Under the pieces are notes generated by a model. The model had not been told where the DNA came from and made no database searches. It was given only the letters and a program-made list of their open reading frames with translations. 64,000 bases of DNA from assembly GCF_037081775.1 (NCBI RefSeq), contig NZ_JBAMHQ010000001.1, positions 806,001 through 870,000 on the forward strand, read 5' to 3'. Both the position numbers and the translations under genes were made by a program. Each line of letters starts with the position of its first letter. Positions within the stretch are counted from its first letter, which is position 1. The stretch comes from Haladaptatus sp. ZSTT2 (GTDB lineage Archaea; Halobacteriota; Halobacteria; Halobacteriales; Halococcaceae). Of the stretch, positions 52,022 to 60,616 are shown in pieces.

Positions 52022-53014
52022 ATGAATCTGCCAGACCTCGTCAACCAGCACCTCGGGGACGAGCAGGCCGCGGCCAGCGTTCACCTCGGTGGTGACGACC
52101 GCGTCTACATCACCCTGACCCGGACGCTCGTCTACCGCGCGGAGGGGCTTTTGAGCGACGAAACGGTCGAGGAGTTCAGCCACAACGTCGAACGGCTCTC
52201 GATTGCGAGCGGCCGCCGCAAGGACAAGTTCGAACTGGAGTACATCGACGGCAAGGAGACGTTCACCGTCCCGGGCAAGCGCACGGACGACATTTTGCAG
52301 TCGCTCATGGCGGGCATCCTCTCGGTCTCGGGCGTCATGGACGGCGACGAGACGCTCGCGGCGGTGTATCGCTTCAGCGAACTCACCTTCGTCGTCACGA
52401 GCAAGCGCGTGGTGAAACACGTCGGGCAGGCCGTCTGGGACGCAGATTTCGAGGAGTATCCCTTTGCCGACATCACCGGCCTCTCGTTCGAGGACGGCAG
52501 CGTCGCCACGTCCATCGTCATCGAGCGAAACGGGCGACCAGAGCGCATCAAGTGCCCGAACGAGCAAGCCCGCGTGGTCCGACAGACGCTCGAAAAGGAA
52601 CTGTTCGACTTCTACGACGTGGCTTCGCTCGCGGAGTTCAACACGGTCGTCGCCCCCGACGAGGAGGAGGATGCAGAGACGGAACGCGCAGATACCAACT
52701 TCGAACAGAGCGGGCTGAAGCCACTCGGAAGTGGGAGCGCGAGCCAGTCTCCGCCAGACCCAACTCCCGACCAGACACCCGAGGAGTCACAGGCGACGAG
52801 CGGCACAACGGCCACGTCGATGTTCGAAGAGACAGAGGCAGAGCCGATTCAGGAGCCAGCCGCCGCGCCCACGGACGTGGCAAGCGCAGACAGTGCGGAT
52901 GTCCAGGCCCAACTCGCAGACCTGACGGCCGTCGTCGAACAGCAAAGCGCGCTCTTAGAACAACAACAGGTGCTCTTAGAACAGCTCATCGACGAACTCA
53001 GTCGCGGCCGGTAA
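52022..53014 (+). CDS. Haloarchaeal conserved protein with C-terminal coiled coil
   Basis: 330 residues. Residues 1-205 contain two similar beta-rich halves (RVYITLTRTLVYRAEGLLSD and LTFVVTSKRVVKHVGQAVWD, each followed by a lipid-binding-like PH pattern), suggesting a duplicated PH-like fold. About 210-285 is an acidic, Pro/Ser/Thr-rich linker. The end (LADLTAVVEQQSALLEQQQV) is a coiled coil likely to oligomerise. The family looks like haloarchaeal DUF7115 (not certain). The 3' end overlaps the convergent DUF5830 gene by 17 bp. Confidence 0.72.
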   Translation: MNLPDLVNQHLGDEQAAASVHLGGDDRVYITLTRTLVYRAEGLLSDETVEEFSHNVERLSIASGRRKDKFELEYIDGKETFTVPGKRTDDILQSLMAGILSVSGVMDGDETLAAVYRFSELTFVVTSKRVVKHVGQAVWDADFEEYPFADITGLSFEDGSVATSIVIERNGRPERIKCPNEQARVVRQTLEKELFDFYDVASLAEFNTVVAPDEEEDAETERADTNFEQSGLKPLGSGSASQSPPDPTPDQTPEESQATSGTTATSMFEETEAEPIQEPAAAPTDVASADSADVQAQLADLTAVVEQQSALLEQQQVLLEQLIDELSRGR

Positions 53015-53357
53015 CCTTCCGGATACACGAGGAGCCAAACGGCCCCAGTTCGCCGGAATCCATCTTGATGAAGTAGCCCGTTGTGATTGCCGCGTTACAG
53101 CGTCGGCAGGTGAACTCGCCTTCTTTCGTGATGACTTCGCTCTCGAATTTGATGTAGTCGCCACCTTGGGGTTTGAGCAGCGTTCCCTCGCGTTCGATGA
53201 CGCCGCGTCTCTCTGCGACGTCGAGAATCTCGCGGGTGGTCGCCGGATTCGTCGTGATGGTCTCGATGCGGTCGAGTGCTTCGGCCAGCGTCAGCTCCTC
53301 GAATTCGAGTTTCGAGAGAAGTTCGACGCCGAGTTCGACCGTATCGCGTTCTGGCAC
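52998..53357 (-). CDS. DUF5830-like zinc-binding winged-helix protein
   Basis: 119 residues. Residues about 15-65 look like a winged helix (TLAEALDRIETITTNPATTR, EILDVAERRGVIERE), followed by a treble-clef-like zinc site: CRRCNAAITTGYFIKMDSGE and GPFGSSCIRKV. It may bind nucleic acid. The start is taken as GTG53357 (VPERDTVELGVELL) since the longer frame is not conserved-looking. It is divergent from the membrane-protein gene at 53437. Confidence 0.72.
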   Translation of the reverse strand: MPERDTVELGVELLSKLEFEELTLAEALDRIETITTNPATTREILDVAERRGVIEREGTLLKPQGGDYIKFESEVITKEGEFTCRRCNAAITTGYFIKMDSGELGPFGSSCIRKVTGRD

Positions 53358-53436
53358 AGTTGCAGTTCGAGAGAGAGGCTGAAAAAGAAAACGGTGAGCC
53401 GCAACTGGTTTACGCGACTCCGGCGGAGAACGGCAC

Positions 53437-54084
53437 ATGGAGCGGGCGACGCGACGACAACTGGTGGGACTCGCCCTCGTGGGGAGCTTTTTCGTCGTCG
53501 TCTCGCTCGTGATTTCGCCGCGCGAGGTGTTCGCTCGCTTCCAGCACCTCGCTGCAGACCCCGTCGCCTTCGGGGGCGTGCTCGCGCTCGTCTACCTCCT
53601 GCGTCCGCTCGTCGCGTGGCCGGTCACGCCCATCTCCGTCGTGGTTGGATACGTCTACGGCATCGAAGTCGGCCTGCCCATCGCGCTCGTCGGCATCGTC
53701 GTCACGGCGATTCCGCCCTTCTTGCTCGCCCGTCACTTCCCCGACAGCGGCCTGTTCGGAAAAGCCCGCGATGTCGGCTCGCGGTTTTTCACCGCCACGG
53801 GCGAGACGCGCGGGGTCATCGCCTCGCGGCTGGTGCCCATTCCAACGGATGTCATCTCCTACAGCGCCGGGCTTTCGGGCGTGCGTCTCTGGCCGTTCGC
53901 CGTCGGGACGCTCGTCGGGGAGTTGCCGTGGACGGTCGCGGGTGTTCTCGCGGGGAGTTCGATGGAGTCGCTTGCTACAGAGGGTGTGGCGGGCATCGGG
54001 CTTCCCCTACTCCTCGGCGCGGTTGCGGTCGCCACGGCGCTCCTCGTGGGGCCACTCTATCGCCAGTTCGTCGCAAAACAGTAA
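53437..54084 (+). CDS. TVP38/TMEM64 (DedA-like) membrane protein
   Basis: This 215-residue protein has five or six membrane helices. The SNARE-associated/VTT domain is recognised by RPLVAWPVTPISVVVGYVYG, a re-entrant motif with GVIASRLVPIPTDVISYSAG and the late LPWTVAGVLAG. Members of this superfamily move lipids or lipid carriers across membranes. The small zinc-finger gene overlaps no part of it and lies 5 bp beyond on the other strand. Confidence 0.87.
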   Translation: MERATRRQLVGLALVGSFFVVVSLVISPREVFARFQHLAADPVAFGGVLALVYLLRPLVAWPVTPISVVVGYVYGIEVGLPIALVGIVVTAIPPFLLARHFPDSGLFGKARDVGSRFFTATGETRGVIASRLVPIPTDVISYSAGLSGVRLWPFAVGTLVGELPWTVAGVLAGSSMESLATEGVAGIGLPLLLGAVAVATALLVGPLYRQFVAKQ

Positions 54085-54261: not shown

Positions 54262-54297
54262 CAATTCTAGAATAACTTTGTCCGGAGTTTGAAAAAT
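54262..54297 (+). promoter_or_regulatory. Two-block promoter element A (TTCTAGAA palindrome and TTGAAAAAT)
   Basis: caattctagaataact at 54262-54277 contains the palindrome ATTCTAGAAT; ttgaaaaat follows at 54289-54297. The same two blocks with the same 27-base offset occur at 56927-56962. The element lies 72 bp before the Met/Asp-repeat gene start. The first block looks like a dimeric regulator site; the second may belong to the BRE/TATA region, followed by tattttac. Confidence 0.7.
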
Positions 54298-54333
54298 TGG
54301 TATTTTACCCCGAGGACTTTGCTCACCTGAATC

Positions 54334-54783
54334 ATGCGAAAACTCGTAGCTTCAGTGGCAGTTGTCCTCGTTGCCCTCGCGCTCGCAATCGGCGCGGGTG
54401 CGGCGGCCCCGGACGCTGGGTTCGCCCAAGAAGACAACATGACTGACGACAACATGACCGACGACGGCATGGACGATGGAATGGACGACGGCATGTCGGA
54501 CGACAACATGAGCGACGACTCAATGTCAGATGACAATATGTCCGGCGACGATATGTCGGATGATGACATGTCTGATGACAAAATGAGTGATGACCAGATG
54601 ACCGACGACCAGATGACGGATGATGAGATGACCGACGAAGAGATGGCAGACGACTCTTCGGGTGACGACATGGGCGAGGAGTCCGGCGCACTCGGTGGCC
54701 TGCTCTCGCCAACGGCGGCAATCGGCGTCGCCATCGTCGCCCTCATCGGCATTGCCTTAGTCATCGCTCGGGTACGGAGCTAA
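54334..54783 (+). CDS. Exported Met/Asp-repeat protein with C-terminal membrane anchor
   Basis: 149 residues. Signal peptide about 1-25 (RKLVASVAVVLVALALAIGA). Residues 36-113 consist of repeats of the type Asp-Asp-x-Met-(Ser/Thr), containing 16 Met; the rest is nearly all Asp, Ser, Thr and Asn. A hydrophobic helix (about 122-145, PTAAIGVAIVALIGIALVIA) and a basic end anchor it outside the membrane. A low-complexity acidic Met ladder could bind metal ions (Cu, for instance) or absorb oxidants by methionine oxidation. The molybdopterin enzyme gene begins 3 bp after its stop, so the two share a transcript. Confidence 0.8.
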   Translation: MRKLVASVAVVLVALALAIGAGAAAPDAGFAQEDNMTDDNMTDDGMDDGMDDGMSDDNMSDDSMSDDNMSGDDMSDDDMSDDKMSDDQMTDDQMTDDEMTDEEMADDSSGDDMGEESGALGGLLSPTAAIGVAIVALIGIALVIARVRS

Positions 54784-54786
54784 GCG

Positions 54787-56268
54787 ATGAACCTGCTCCC
54801 ACAATCACAGCGCATTCGCGTCGGTGCTGTCAGAGCGGTACTCGCAGGCGTCGCAGCCATCGCTGGCTCCTACGCCGCCGCCGGGTTCACGACTGGATTC
54901 GTGGGAGCGCCCCTCGAAGCGATGCTCTCACGAGCGGCCCCCGCGTCGCTCGTGACGTTCGCCATCGTCGTCCTCGGCGACATCGGCCAGAAACTGAACC
55001 TGCTCGCCGCCATAACCCTCGCAGTCCTCCTCATTGCGTGCCTCTCAGCCGCAGCACTGGCGACTGGGTGGCGACAGCGAAGCGGGCTCGTCTCGGTGAC
55101 GGTGGCGCTCGGACTAACGTGGGCGGCCGTGACTCTCCTCACCGGCGAACCCGTGTTGGCCCTCGCCGCGGCGGTTCCCGCGAGCGCCGTCCTCGCGCTC
55201 ACCGGCCCCGGCGTCCCACCGAGTGAAGTGGACGCCACCGCACGCCGTCGCGTGCTCACCGCCATCGCAGGCGTCGCGGGCTTCTCGGTGCTCTCGTACG
55301 TCGTTGGTGGCAACCGCGGCGGCGACGACACGAGCGACCGACCGCTCGGCCTCACCGCAGCACAGCACCAAGAAATCGAGACGATGCTGGCAGAAGCAGA
55401 AGCGAAATCGCTTCCCGTGTCGGGACTCGAACCCCTCGTCAGCACGTCGTTTTACGAGGTTGACATCGCCGCGGTGAACCCGAACACGGCCCCTGAAAAC
55501 TGGACGCTCTCGCTTACGGGAGCCGTCTCCGAGGACGCAACGTTCACCTACGACGACATCCGCGCGCTCCCGGTCGAACAGCGCTTCATCACGCTCCGGT
55601 GTGTCGGCGACTCGCTCAACGGCACGAAGATGGACAACGCACTCTGGACGGGGACGCCCCTCGCCCCACTGCTCGACGAGGTCATCACCGATTCGGGCTG
55701 TGAGTGTGCCATGCTCCGGGCGGGAGACGGCTACTACGTCCAGTTCCCCATCGCGGCGCTCAGACGCGGCTTCCTCGCCTACGGGATGAACGGCAGACCG
55801 CTGCCCCGCTCGCACGGCGCGCCCGTCCGGGTGCTCATTCCGGGCCACTGGGGCGAAATCAACGTCAAATGGCTCACCGAAATCGAGTTCCTCGATGAGG
55901 CAGTCGATGGCTACTGGGAAGAGCGCGGCTGGCACGGCACCGGCCCCGTCAACATCGTCGCAAAGCTCTGGGTGGAAACCCAGAACGATGACGGCACGGT
56001 GACGGTCGCTGGCCACGCCTACGCCGGACTCATGGACGTCTCTGCGGTCGAGGTCAACACTGGCGATGGATGGCAGGAAGCCACGCTCTCAGAGCCGCTG
56101 CCGGGCGAGGACGTGTGGCGACAGTGGTCGTACACCTACGAGCACCCCGGTTCCCAACACCGGGTGCGAGTGCGCGCCATCACGGGCGACGGGACGGTGC
56201 AGGCGAACGAAGAACTGCCCGCGTTCCCGAACGGGCCAAGTGGCTGGGTTTCGAGAACCGTCCAATGA
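54787..56268 (+). CDS. Membrane-anchored molybdopterin-dependent oxidoreductase, sulfite-oxidase family
   Basis: 493 residues. The N-terminal 175 residues hold about five membrane helices, with a basic segment before the last (ARRRVLTAIAGVAGFSVLSY). The catalytic domain (about 215-370) has the molybdenum-ligand Cys272 in FITLRCVGDSLNG, then NALWTGTPLAPLLDEV and RSHGAPVRVLIPGHWGEINV. Residues about 385-490 are the Ig-like dimerisation domain of sulfite oxidases. It should face outward and reduce or oxidise a sulfur compound: sulfite, or by analogy with YedY/MsrP methionine sulfoxide. The neighbouring Met-rich protein favours the latter (inference). Confidence 0.85.
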   Translation: MNLLPQSQRIRVGAVRAVLAGVAAIAGSYAAAGFTTGFVGAPLEAMLSRAAPASLVTFAIVVLGDIGQKLNLLAAITLAVLLIACLSAAALATGWRQRSGLVSVTVALGLTWAAVTLLTGEPVLALAAAVPASAVLALTGPGVPPSEVDATARRRVLTAIAGVAGFSVLSYVVGGNRGGDDTSDRPLGLTAAQHQEIETMLAEAEAKSLPVSGLEPLVSTSFYEVDIAAVNPNTAPENWTLSLTGAVSEDATFTYDDIRALPVEQRFITLRCVGDSLNGTKMDNALWTGTPLAPLLDEVITDSGCECAMLRAGDGYYVQFPIAALRRGFLAYGMNGRPLPRSHGAPVRVLIPGHWGEINVKWLTEIEFLDEAVDGYWEERGWHGTGPVNIVAKLWVETQNDDGTVTVAGHAYAGLMDVSAVEVNTGDGWQEATLSEPLPGEDVWRQWSYTYEHPGSQHRVRVRAITGDGTVQANEELPAFPNGPSGWVSRTVQ

Positions 56269-56315
56269 GAGAGACTTTTGCCGTTGACGACAAGTAAACT
56301 CGATACAGAAAACCG

Positions 56316-56591
56316 ATGGAAAAGGTGTTGTGGTACTTGTTCGTGGGCATGCGAGGGGGCGCAAACCGCGTCCGCATCATCAGAGCCCTCGCTGAGCGCC
56401 CACACAACGCGAATCAGCTCTCGACGGAGCTTGACGTGGACTACAACACCATCCGTCATCATCTCGATATGCTCATCGAGCACGGGATCGTCGAGCCGGG
56501 CGGCGAGGGTTACGGCGCGCTGTACTTCCTCACCGACCAATTCGAACACCACTGGGATGCGTTCGAGCGCATCACCGACCAAATGGAGTGA
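56316..56591 (+). CDS. Small winged-helix (ArsR-like) regulator
   Basis: 91 residues and one winged helix: VRIIRALAERPHNANQLSTE and LDVDYNTIRHHLDMLIEHGI, then the wing GEGYGALYFLTD. No additional sensing domain; no Cys for metal, so a partner may supply the signal. It lies 47 bp after the molybdopterin gene and 6 bp before the next. It is the obvious candidate to bind the TTCTAGAA palindromes at 54262 and 56927 (inference). Confidence 0.85.
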   Translation: MEKVLWYLFVGMRGGANRVRIIRALAERPHNANQLSTELDVDYNTIRHHLDMLIEHGIVEPGGEGYGALYFLTDQFEHHWDAFERITDQME

Positions 56592-56597
56592 CTCACA

Positions 56598-56894
56598 ATG
56601 GCAATGGGAACTGAACTACTAATCGCAAGCACCCTCGCGGGACTCAACATCATCCTGCTCGCGGCGCTCACCTTCGTCTGGGCGCGCAACTACCGGACGT
56701 TCCGGACGAACACCATCCTCGGCCTCATCGCCTTCGGCGCGGTGATGCTCGTAGAGAACGCTGTCGCGCTCTATTTTTTCTTTACCATGCAGATGTTCTA
56801 CGGCTCAGACCCGACCGTCCAAGGCGCAGTCGCCGTCCTGCGCGCACTGCAGTTCGTCGCGCTCGTCTTCCTGACGTGGGTCACGGTGAAGTGA
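56598..56894 (+). CDS. Small three-helix membrane protein, partner of the regulator
   Basis: 98 residues with helices at about 7-29, 40-64 and 76-96, and a short charged loop (RNYRTFRTN). It is a typical companion of winged-helix genes in haloarchaea (I associate it with DUF7521). It may tether or gate the regulator, or be part of an electron-transfer complex; there is no heme-ligand pattern. Function unknown. Confidence 0.75.
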   Translation: MAMGTELLIASTLAGLNIILLAALTFVWARNYRTFRTNTILGLIAFGAVMLVENAVALYFFFTMQMFYGSDPTVQGAVAVLRALQFVALVFLTWVTVK

Positions 56895-56926
56895 GGTCCC
56901 TGTTTTCCGCAGTTCCCACTTGCGAG

Positions 56927-56962
56927 CAATTCTAGAACAACTCGGTGTGAATCTTGAAAAAT
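56927..56962 (+). promoter_or_regulatory. Two-block promoter element B (TTCTAGAA palindrome and TTGAAAAAT)
   Basis: caattctagaacaact at 56927-56942 and ttgaaaaat at 56954-56962 repeat element A at 54262-54297 with equal spacing and 15 of 16 plus 9 of 9 matching bases. It lies 79 bp before the Tat-exported protein gene. Sequence between the blocks differs, so conservation is confined to the blocks, as for protein-binding sites. Confidence 0.7.
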
Positions 56963-57005
56963 CGCTATCCCTCCGTTCTGCGTCGAGTCATAGTGAGGTG
57001 ATGAA

Positions 57006-57500
57006 ATGACCACACAGACACCGCTCCCGACTGTGACCCGCAGACGCATCCTCAGAACGACGGCCCTCCTCAGCGCTGGACTCGCACTCAGTGCGGGAAG
57101 CGCGGCAGCCAACCCCGGCAAACCGAACTTTGGCCCGTCGCTCTACGGCGACGGCAAGACCTGGGGCACGAAAGGCGCGGCCGCGATTCCCGGCTCGAAC
57201 GGCAAGAATGACCACTCCTTCGACAAGCTGTTCGCCTTCACGAACGGCGCGACCGGCCAGCTTCCCGTCGCGGAGGCGGCACCCGGCAACCCCGCGTTCA
57301 ACGGCGGGCGCTGGTACACCCACACTGCCACGTGGACGGCTGCCGGGCTGGCCGCACACAATCCGCTCCCGGTGTTGACATCCTACGACGACGTTCACGC
57401 GGAGTACGAGGCTGGACACCTGTCCATCACGCCCGGGTCACCGAACCCCGGCGACCCGCCGAACTTCTTCGAATGCCCGCTCTTGCCAGTCAAGCAGTGA
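57006..57500 (+). CDS. Tat-exported protein of unknown function
   Basis: 164 residues. Tat signal TRRRILRTTALLSAGLALSAGSAAA, then a 130-residue mature domain: GKPNFGPSLYGDGKTWGTKG, SFDKLFAFTNGATGQLPVAE, GRWYTHTATWTAAGLAAHNP and the ending FFECPLLPVKQ with a single Cys. Similar proteins occur in bacteria, to my recollection, without known function. No catalytic motif is apparent. It shares promoter element B with the Met-rich/molybdopterin operon upstream and is therefore a probable member of the same response. Confidence 0.72.
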   Translation: MTTQTPLPTVTRRRILRTTALLSAGLALSAGSAAANPGKPNFGPSLYGDGKTWGTKGAAAIPGSNGKNDHSFDKLFAFTNGATGQLPVAEAAPGNPAFNGGRWYTHTATWTAAGLAAHNPLPVLTSYDDVHAEYEAGHLSITPGSPNPGDPPNFFECPLLPVKQ

Positions 57501-57529: not shown

Positions 57530-60500
57530 TTAGCTGCACTCAGACCAGCCACAGGACTCGCAGGTCTTGCAGCCTTCAGAGAAGTAGAGCGTCATCGACC
57601 CACAGTCGGGACACTCTGGGCTCTCGCCCGCGTCGATGAGCGACTGGGTTGCGTCGTCGTCGCTTTCTGCGTCCACCTCATCTGCGTCCGCTGCAGGCGC
57701 GCTCTCCTCTGCAATCTCCGCGAGGTTGCGCTGTTGTGGGTAAGCCTTGTCGATTTCGCCGTCGAGATACCGGCGCATCGCCGTGCCGATGGCGTCCGGG
57801 ATGGACTGAATCTGCTCGCCCTTGTCCCACGCAATCTTCGGTGAGCGGATGCCTTTCAGTTCGCCCGCAATCTCCTCTGGGTCGACACCCGACCGGAGCG
57901 CGGTCGAGACGGTCTTTGCGAGCGACTCGGTGAAGCTTGCGGTGAACCCACCGGAGTTACCGATGTTCGCGAACAACTCGAACGGACGGCCCTGTTCGTC
58001 TTCGTTGATGTTGACGTACAGCTTGCCGTAGCCCGTCGAGATGCGCTGGGTGACGCCGTAGAGGACGTCCGGTCGCGCGCGCTTCTCGGCGTAGAGGTTG
58101 CCGTTCGCCGCGGCCGTGGCGATGGAGTCGAGTTGCGCGTTGAACGCCGCCTTGACTTCCTCGTGGTCTAGGAACTCGTCCATCGAGCCGAACACCTCGG
58201 TGATCTGCTCAACGATGGCCTCTGCGGCTTCGTCGTCGTCGGCGAAGTCTGCGTTCTTCGCGCGGGTGGTGAGCACCTGCTTGCTGCGGGTGCCGTCGCG
58301 GTAGACGGTGACGCCCTTCCCGCCGTGGTCGTAGATGTAGCGGTACACCTCGTCCATGTCCGCTTTGCTCGCGGAGTTCGGGAAGTTGCAGGTCTTCGAG
58401 ATGGCGGAGTCAACGCCGGCCTGTGCGGCGCACTGGACGCCCGCGTGGTCGAGGCCTGCGAGGTCTGCGGTGACGACGAACAGTTCGCCAATCGCGTCAG
58501 GCACCGTCGAGAGCGACGTGACGCCCTCGAAGGCGTTGTTCTGCATCTGTTCTACGGCTTCGGCTTGGACGGCGTCTACGTCGATGTCGTTCGCCTCAAG
58601 CACGCGCAGGAAGTAGTCGTCGAACTCGACGAGCATCTCGTCGCCCTGCACGTCGTCGGAGACGTTCTTGAAGTAGGCGACGTTGTAGATTGGCTCGATG
58701 CCGCCCGTGGTGTTGCCGACCATCGAGGTCGTGCCCGTTGGCGCGACGGTCGTCGTGTTGTGGTTGCGAATCGAGAAGCCGTCGGCCCACTCGTCGGCCG
58801 AGAGGCCGGTGTGGTGTTCGAACCAGTCGCGGTATTCGACGGGGTCTGCGTACTTCGAGTCGCCCCAGTCGTTGAACGCGCCACGGTCCTCGGCAAGTTC
58901 GTGGGAGGCCCACTTCGACCCGTGGTTGATGTGCATCATGAGCTGGCGGACGAGTTCGTTGCCCTCCTCAGAGCCGTAGCGGATGCCGAGTTGGATGTAG
59001 AGTTGCGCGAGGCCCATGACGCCGAGGCCGATTTTGCGCATGTTGCGGACTTTCTCCTCGATTTTCGGCACCGGGAAGTCCGACATGGTGACGACGTTCT
59101 CTAAGAAGCGCGTCCCCCACTCGATGCGGTGGTCGAACTCGTCCCAGTCGATGGCGTCCGCGAGGAACGCGTCCATGGCTTCCTCGGTCGAGTCGAAGTT
59201 CTCGCCGTTCTCCGCGTGCCAGACGCGCCAGTCGGGGGCGTCGAACTCGGCAATTGTAGAGAGGTTGATGTGGCCGAGGTTGCACGCTTCGTACTCCTCC
59301 AGTGGCTGTTCGCCACACGGGTTGGTGGCGAGAATCTGGTGGTCGGGGTGCTTGTCGACGTCGAAGGAGTGCTCCTTGTTGACGCGCTCTAAGTAGATGA
59401 CGCCGGGTTCGCCGTTCTCCCACGAGCCGTCGATGATGTGGTCCCAGATTTCGACCGCGGGAATCTTGAGCACTTCGCCGGGGGTGACGTAGTGACCGAG
59501 GTCGTAGCGGTCGTACATCTCCTTGGTCTCCTCGGTGGCGATGTGTGGCTCTTCTGTGCGTGGGTTCGTGAAGACAAAGTCCTCCTCGTTGTAGAGTGCC
59601 TCCATGAAGCCGTCCGTGACGCCCACGGAGATATTGAAGTTAGAGAGGTGGCCCTCGACGGCGTTGCGGAGGTGCTTTGGCACGCGGCCTTCCTCGTCGA
59701 TGAGCGAGCGGGCCTCTTCGAGCGCTTCGTTGAAGCTCGTGTACGTGTAGTCGTCCGGGTCGTTCAGGCGGAGCGTGACCGCGAGCGAGACGTCCTTGTT
59801 CTTCGCGTGGAGGAACTCGATGACGTCCGGGTGCGAGACGCGCATGACGCCCATCTGGGCACCGCGGCGGGTGCCACCCTGCGCGATGGTCTCGCACATC
59901 TGGTCGAACGTGCGCATGAACGTGATTGGCCCGGAGGCGATTCCTCCCGTGGAGCCAACCGCGTCACCGTACGGACGAAGTTGCCAGAAGGCGTAGCCCA
60001 TGCCACCGCCCGACTGGAAGACCTCTGCGGCCTCCATGGCGGTTTTGTGGATGTCAGTGAGGTCGTCCGCGGGCGAGTCAACGAAACACGCAGAGAGCTG
60101 CTGGAGTTCGTCGCCCGCGTTCATGAGCGTCGGGGAGTTCGGGATGAAGCTGAGTTGCTCCATAAGGTCTTGGAACTCGGCGCGTACCGACTCTACTTTC
60201 TCCTGTACGCCTGCTGGAAGTTCGGGGACGACGGTGTCGTAGTCGAACTTGTTGACGTTGAACTCGGTGAGTTGCGTTTCGACGTCGTCGGCGGCGGTGG
60301 TTCCCTCGCCGAACACTTCTGCGGCGAGTTCGTCGCGGCGTGGGTGGCGTGGTTTCAGTTGCTCGGGGCGAACCGTCAGTTCGAGGCCGAGGTTGTCTGC
60401 CTCGTAGACGGCTTCTGCGAGCGCGATGTTCTTCGCAACGCGGACGAACAGGTCTTCTTGGGTCTCGATAAGCTCCCCGTTCGCGTCTTTGCGGAGATAT

Positions 60501-60616
60501 CGAGCCGGAAGAATGTTGTTATACGCGTTTGTGGTCATCCGGTCTGCGAGAGTCTCCCCATCCGTGCGCTTGATGGGCAGGGTAATCTCGTCGGCGGAGA
60601 GGTTCGCGCGGCTCAT
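57530..60616 (-). CDS. nrdJ: Adenosylcobalamin-dependent ribonucleoside-diphosphate reductase (class II)
   Basis: This 1028-residue enzyme makes deoxyribonucleotides using adenosylcobalamin to generate a thiyl radical. The family blocks are [53 protein letters not shown], the active-site [40 protein letters not shown], and a C-terminal [20 protein letters not shown] zinc ribbon with Cys pair for re-reduction. No N-terminal ATP cone is obvious. Full length. A hairpin lies 15 bases before the start. The adenosyltransferase at 5957 supplies its cofactor. Confidence 0.97.
   Translation of the reverse strand: [1028 protein letters not shown]

Follow-up and report, generated by a model that had tools for sequence, protein, structure and literature searches.

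A 64,000-nucleotide stretch of the genome of Haladaptatus sp. ZSTT2 (the window, that is, the whole stretch of DNA analyzed) carries on its forward strand an operon that may form an oxidant sink of the cell envelope, located on the outside of the haloarchaeal membrane and operating by cycles of Met oxidation and Met-sulfoxide reduction. We put the probability of this reading, which draws on sequence comparison and on analogy with bacterial systems, at about one half. The first gene of the operon, MetR (54334–54783, 149 amino acids), encodes a predicted exported protein with a signal peptide, an acidic Met/Asp-rich segment (54439–54672, 16 Met in 78 residues) and a C-terminal transmembrane (TM) anchor. 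Three bp separate its stop codon from the start of the gene for a membrane-anchored molybdopterin enzyme of the sulfite-oxidase (SO) fold, here the Mo enzyme (54787–56268, 493 amino acids; PF00174, E=3e-35, 121.6 bits against a cutoff of 24). It is followed by wHTH, an ArsR-type winged-helix regulator and a conserved neighbor (56316–56591; PF01022, E=8e-11), by smTM, a small membrane protein of 98 amino acids mostly paired with wHTH (56598–56894), and then by a gene for a Tat-type (twin-arginine translocation) exported protein. The genes of the operon, their place in the window, the 3-bp gap and the count of Met residues are as given in a preliminary description of this DNA.

Linkage and composition of the Met-rich partners

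Orthologs of the Mo enzyme were collected from 60 related genomes and by a search of 84,980 species genomes; removal of duplicates left 111 scorable orthologs, while the enzyme tree has 112 rows. All 80 matches listed from the 84,980 genomes are haloarchaeal or belong to uncultured archaea, and in a phylum sample no match at E<1e-40 lies outside the same order. In 35 of 111 haloarchaeal orthologs, the gene immediately upstream on the same strand encodes a Met/acid-rich exported protein, and genera with cultured members carrying the operon include Haloferax (Haloferax mucosum), Haladaptatus, Natrinema and Halonotius. Neither a control set of 864 kb with 874 called genes nor about 1,280 other genes of the analyzed loci contained an exported Met/Asp repeat besides MetR. 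Five loose flags among these approximately 2,150 background genes, none of them comparable, came from unrelated proteins of a cytosolic type or from runs of Gly and Met, and even with all five counted the linkage yields a Fisher p of about 1e-43. As related sequences are not independent, more weight than on this p value should be placed on the enzyme tree, on which the presence or absence of the Met-rich neighbor changes at least 21 times. The co-occurrence across Halobacteria that the preliminary description had proposed as a check is thus observed. Among approximately 42 PF00174 paralogs, one has a Gly/Met-rich neighbor and none has a Met/Asp repeat; hence the link is specific to this enzyme group, and within the group it is optional.

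The Met-rich partners have four architectures: a Sec signal, the segment and a C-terminal TM anchor, as in the window; a Tat-type lipoprotein consisting of the segment alone; a lipoprotein with a Spond_N-like domain; and a lipoprotein with DUF7482. The segment is the sole part common to all four, and many partners consist of the segment and an anchor with nothing else. In the window, the segment is built mainly of M-[ST]-D-D-x repeats, lacks His, Cys, Tyr and Trp, and strongly exceeds the 1.3% Met background of acidic haloarchaeal open reading frames (P=4e-15). The pooled segments contain 26% Asp, 20% Met, 11–12% each of Thr, Glu, Ser and Gly, 6% Asn, no His and practically no Cys. Two Met are found at distance 5 threefold more often than expected (150 observed vs 53), while distances 1, 2 and 3 are depleted (9, 2 and 5 observed vs 56–58 expected each; 16 vs approximately 170 in sum), so that MM, MxM and MxxM are strongly avoided. 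Among three species of the same genus, Met is kept in 15/15, 13/15 and 13/15 cases, Asp in 27/34, 18/32 and 19/30, and other residues in 19/37, 12/38 and 14/36. The finding that Met is the best-conserved residue among sister species, ahead of Asp (the reverse had been named in the preliminary description as a refuting result), is supportive and not decisive, because alignment on Met favors Met.

The usual Cu(I)-binding Met motifs are MxM and MxxM, and therefore the isolated, evenly spaced Met seem to fit one-by-one oxidation better than chelation. This bears on metal handling as an alternative, in which MetR would bind Cu(I) or Ag(I) at the surface and the Mo enzyme would mature beside MetR or act on another substrate. 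Binding of Cu(I) or Ag(I) is common among Met-rich proteins, as is metal sensing among ArsR-type regulators; moreover, a plastocyanin-type lipoprotein with a Met-containing linker is encoded 13 kb away, and the regulator with its promoter element also stands beside a ferritin-like/spondin gene in another genome (see below). Given segments free of His and practically of Cys, with the chelating spacings avoided, and a wHTH without Cys, we consider metal handling unlikely. The plastocyanin-type (PF00127) lipoprotein itself (L166:5351–6124, C1:873350–874123, 3.4 kb past the end of the window) has a Met/His/Asp linker with MDDEH x4, a repeat that is present in genome G001 as well. This repeat, His-bearing and unlike that of MetR, may be a real copper linker.

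N-x-S/T sequons are also enriched in the segments (83 observed vs 25 in shuffles), which suggests a glycosylated stalk. If the Met-rich region were nothing but a hydrophilic N-glycosylated stalk or linker, Met would be incidental and the linkage would be due to another role of the lipoprotein. Asp/Glu/Thr-rich linkers are indeed usual in haloarchaeal lipoproteins, but many partners have no part besides the segment and anchor to which such a role could be assigned, the Met content is 20% instead of 1.3% with Met the best-conserved residue, and none of 27 lipoprotein-like genes in the 864 kb of control DNA has a comparable Met-rich linker; a passive stalk is thus improbable.

The proposed sacrificial oxidation of Met recalls the bacterial pentapeptide MXKDX family. 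The family model TIGR02953 scores 39 bits on the window MetR against an NCBIfam cutoff of 41; in the genome search the ortholog of the sister species G002 exceeds the cutoff with 43.3 bits, and the proteins of G000 and G001 stay below it. MetR thus appears borderline inside the family. In 60 genomes this model found only proteins of the same genus and one surface protein (in G016) and is too narrow to map the wider Met-rich set; a pattern written at the DNA level for MxDxxMxDxxM, though specific, is likewise narrow. A loose Met-spacing pattern applied to the 60 genomes returned noise only and was dropped.

Fold and active site of the Mo enzyme

The AlphaFold2 model of the Mo enzyme, based on an alignment of 84 orthologs, has a mean pLDDT (predicted local distance difference test) of 92.5 and a pTM (predicted template modeling score) of 0.88. 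In this model the catalytic part has a complete two-domain sulfite-oxidase fold including the dimerization domain. Structure comparison gave Z of 26–29 to SO, SorA, SorT, SoxC and nitrate reductase (root-mean-square deviation 2.3–3.2, 280–298 aligned) and Z of 17 to MsrP (YedY). The dimerization domain (PF03404), a C-terminal Ig-like domain at residues ~388–493 (55948–56265), is sub-threshold in Pfam (E=0.18) and clear in the structure comparison, so that its retention, noted in the preliminary description, is upheld by the predicted fold. The MsrP equivalog model NF003767 reached 57 bits against a cutoff of 207. The enzyme is therefore not a simple MsrP, as had been stated, and by the membership tests made it would count neither as MsrP nor as sulfite oxidase.

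The active-site residues were compared with those of SO and MsrP. Cys272 (55600–55602), the presumed Mo ligand, is kept in 84/84 orthologs and is aligned with the Mo-ligand Cys of both MsrP and SO; Phe222 is also kept in 84/84. Two of the sulfite-binding Arg of SO are absent: the position of SO Arg138 is occupied by Asp (76/84) or Ser, and that of SO Arg190 by Leu (79/84). In the N-terminal strip, the Mo enzyme has VSxxFYxVD, MsrP has VSGYNNFYEF, and the canonical haloarchaeal paralogs have RNH in the strip of SO Arg138; the loop around the Mo-ligand Cys reads RCVG[DE]xLNG in the Mo enzyme, MRCVEAWS in MsrP and C[SA]GNGR in SO. SO Arg450 was left out as evidence, as prokaryotic-type paralogs align no Arg there. 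Since these strips differ from those of SO, we read the Mo enzyme as built on the SO scaffold, with features around Mo that resemble MsrP. Separate PF00174 paralogs in haloarchaea keep the canonical SO motifs (RNH, C[SA]GNGR) and have no Met/Asp partner.

Which substrate such a site would accept is weighed against two further alternatives. The enzyme could reduce other S- or N-oxides similar to dimethyl sulfoxide (DMSO), or an unrelated oxidized substrate, with MetR as an auxiliary sensor or a sink that is not regenerated. E. coli MsrP reduces DMSO and trimethylamine N-oxide in vitro as well (PMC6211008), and most orthologs have no MetR in cis; however, the repeated gain of Met-rich partners at the Mo enzyme gene is hard to explain unless both act together, and we give this possibility little credence. 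Very unlikely is an envelope sulfite dehydrogenase whose Met protein would protect the enzyme or the membrane: although the full fold with the dimerization domain is closest to SO, SorA, SorT and SoxC, two of the sulfite-binding Arg are gone, the substrate loop is shorter, and the canonical motifs reside in the separate paralogs, which speaks against both the sulfite oxidation proposed as an alternative in the preliminary description and an active site fitting only sulfite.

The N-terminal helices contain no His in residues 1–180. A twin arginine (55243–55248; R153 in 83/84 orthologs, R154 in 84/84), not mentioned in the preliminary description, follows the first TM block and directly precedes the last TM helix. 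Together with the adjacent residues (RRRVL, residues 153–157, 55243–55257) it may be an internal Tat signal of this polytopic protein and recalls actinobacterial Rieske proteins.

Promoter element and regulator

Only two sites in the 3.23-Mb genome fit the pattern TTCTAGAAYAACT..GT..G.A...TGAAAAAT. Copy 1 (TTCTAGAATAACTTTGTCCGGAGTTTGAAAAAT, 54265–54297) lies ~70 bp 5' of the first start codon of the operon, and copy 2 (56930–56962) lies 5' of the gene for the Tat-type exported protein (57006–57500), which is presumed to be co-regulated. The element, which the preliminary description had ascribed to both, is kept in sister species while the neighboring DNA diverges, and as ATTCTAGAAC..CGAACGGAGT it precedes the operon in other families too. 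The form TTCTAGAA was found at 20 sites in 1.12 Mb of ortholog loci, 13 of them upstream of the operon, mostly ~65–90 bp before the first gene, whether this gene is MetR or not.

With at most one mismatch, ATTCTAGAAC precedes 14/106 operons (control, 0.33%); with at most two, it precedes 27/57 operons that contain the wHTH/smTM pair and 4/47 that do not (p=1.2e-5). As the element goes with the pair, its binding by wHTH is the simplest inference. The pair stands beside 31/34 MetR-bearing operons and 26/72 operons without MetR (p=6e-8), and on phylogenetically independent pairs this association is a trend only (median p 0.125).

The extended form ATTCTAGAACNANNNCGAACGGAGT occurs at only four places in 60 genomes, three of which are this operon. 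The fourth (ATTCTAGAAC..CGAACGGA) is found where a wHTH/smTM pair diverges from the gene for a ferritin-like/spondin exported protein (L220:2310–4768, contig C68 of G009), in the DNA between them and away from any Mo enzyme, and so the regulatory module appears to have other targets.

Proposed mechanism and related systems

In the proposed cycle, MetR would be a probably disordered, acidic stalk anchored at the surface, the isolated and regular Met of which would be oxidized sacrificially by reactive chlorine or bromine species or other oxidants. The Mo enzyme would be folded in the cytoplasm, exported by Tat and held in the membrane, where it would reduce Met sulfoxides, thereby regenerating the sink and repairing other envelope proteins. 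The wHTH and its partner membrane protein would control the operon via the ATTCTAGAAC element. More tentatively, we put forward a fuller version: a shield that evolved several times in haloarchaea, its acidic, glycosylated Met-repeat stalks being regenerated by an SO-fold Mo enzyme that works without MsrQ, with the dedicated wHTH/membrane-protein pair and its operator in control.

Bacterial precedents exist. In Azospira suillum, MrpX-YedY1Z1 comprises a periplasmic Met-rich peptide and a Mo enzyme, with sacrificial Met oxidation and regeneration (PMC5748585, PMC4623255); BcrXQP of Brucella is induced by hypochlorous acid and protects against it, and MXKDX proteins constitute the MrpX/BcrX family (PMC8315932). 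Both systems share with the operon an exported period-5 Met repeat encoded beside a PF00174 Mo enzyme. In contrast to them, the MetR repeat is acidic (M-[ST]-D-D-x) and not Lys-bearing (MXKDX), the haloarchaeal Met proteins are anchored by membrane or lipid, the enzyme has the SO fold with a dimerization domain and is neither an MsrP nor accompanied by MsrQ, the regulator is a wHTH instead of an extracytoplasmic function sigma/anti-sigma pair, and the hosts are Archaea. With E. coli MsrP, the Mo enzyme shares the PF00174 molybdenum cofactor domain, the RCV Mo-ligand loop and an N-terminal strip of the kind VSxxFYE/VSxxxxFYE; it differs in the added dimerization domain and N-terminal TM block, in the LNG loop (EAWSM in MsrP) and in having no MsrQ partner. 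SorA, SorT, SoxC and the chicken and plant SO have the same two-domain fold with a dimerization domain; compared with them, the Mo enzyme lacks two sulfite-binding Arg, is membrane-anchored and has a substrate loop ~12–14 residues shorter. By analogy, the operon is best read as functionally similar to MrpX-MsrPQ, with another enzyme at its core and no MsrQ. Our literature search of open papers found no description of a haloarchaeal pair of a Met-rich protein and a Mo enzyme.

Several observations weigh against a Met-sulfoxide-cycling sink. Two thirds of the orthologs have no adjacent Met-rich gene; this fits a general repair enzyme with an optional sink, since E. coli msrP likewise has no Met-rich gene beside it. 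Met-rich linkers also exist away from the Mo enzyme, in the halocyanin-type protein of L166 and in a spondin lipoprotein of G022 (L168). The overall fold resembles sulfite dehydrogenases more closely than MsrP, and the NCBIfam sulfite dehydrogenase scores (88.7, 83 and 77 bits) are above that of MsrP (57), with all of them far below the cutoffs. A profile search of the genome for PF01794, the family of MsrQ (the heme/flavin membrane partner of MsrP), found no match, and the operon encodes no heme or Cys partner protein. Finally, thiol sensing by wHTH is unlikely, as it contains no Cys. The interpretation in the preliminary description thus has partial support: none of the outcomes that it named as refuting was observed, and the likeness to MrpX holds, the G002 protein being above the MXKDX cutoff, but the enzyme is not MsrP, the genome has no MsrQ-type partner, and most orthologs have no Met-rich gene beside them.

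According to a review of archaeal Met sulfoxide reductases (PMC6211008), enzymes of the sulfite oxidase family are widespread in archaea, and reduction of Met sulfoxide is not known from them. If the cycling sink is real, the operon would supply an archaeal enzyme of this family with that activity, one more kind of Mo-dependent reductase for Met sulfoxide. It would also give the MrpX strategy a counterpart in archaea, in brines in which reactive halogen species can plausibly arise through sunlight and halide chemistry, would offer a candidate regulator together with its operator, and would be a case of the same idea recurrently assembled from unrelated parts.

In G022, the Mo enzyme has no adjacent Met-rich gene and the spondin-type lipoprotein with a Met-rich linker is at L168:1397–2350; the partner may thus sometimes be encoded elsewhere in the genome. 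Genes for DUF5830, a VTT-domain protein and ribonucleotide reductase flank the Mo enzyme in 32–36 of 80 named loci; the flanking genes in the window are at 52022–54084 and 57530–60616. As the VTT/Mo enzyme neighborhood is kept with or without MetR in between, MetR seems either to have entered an old gene neighborhood or to have dropped out of it. Searches with Pfam/NCBIfam-type profiles gave no family match for smTM or for the Tat-type exported protein. The latter (relatives L212–L215) represents an undescribed family whose gene has the promoter element of the operon in two species, and contig C2 of the ZSTT2 genome encodes a His-rich paralog.

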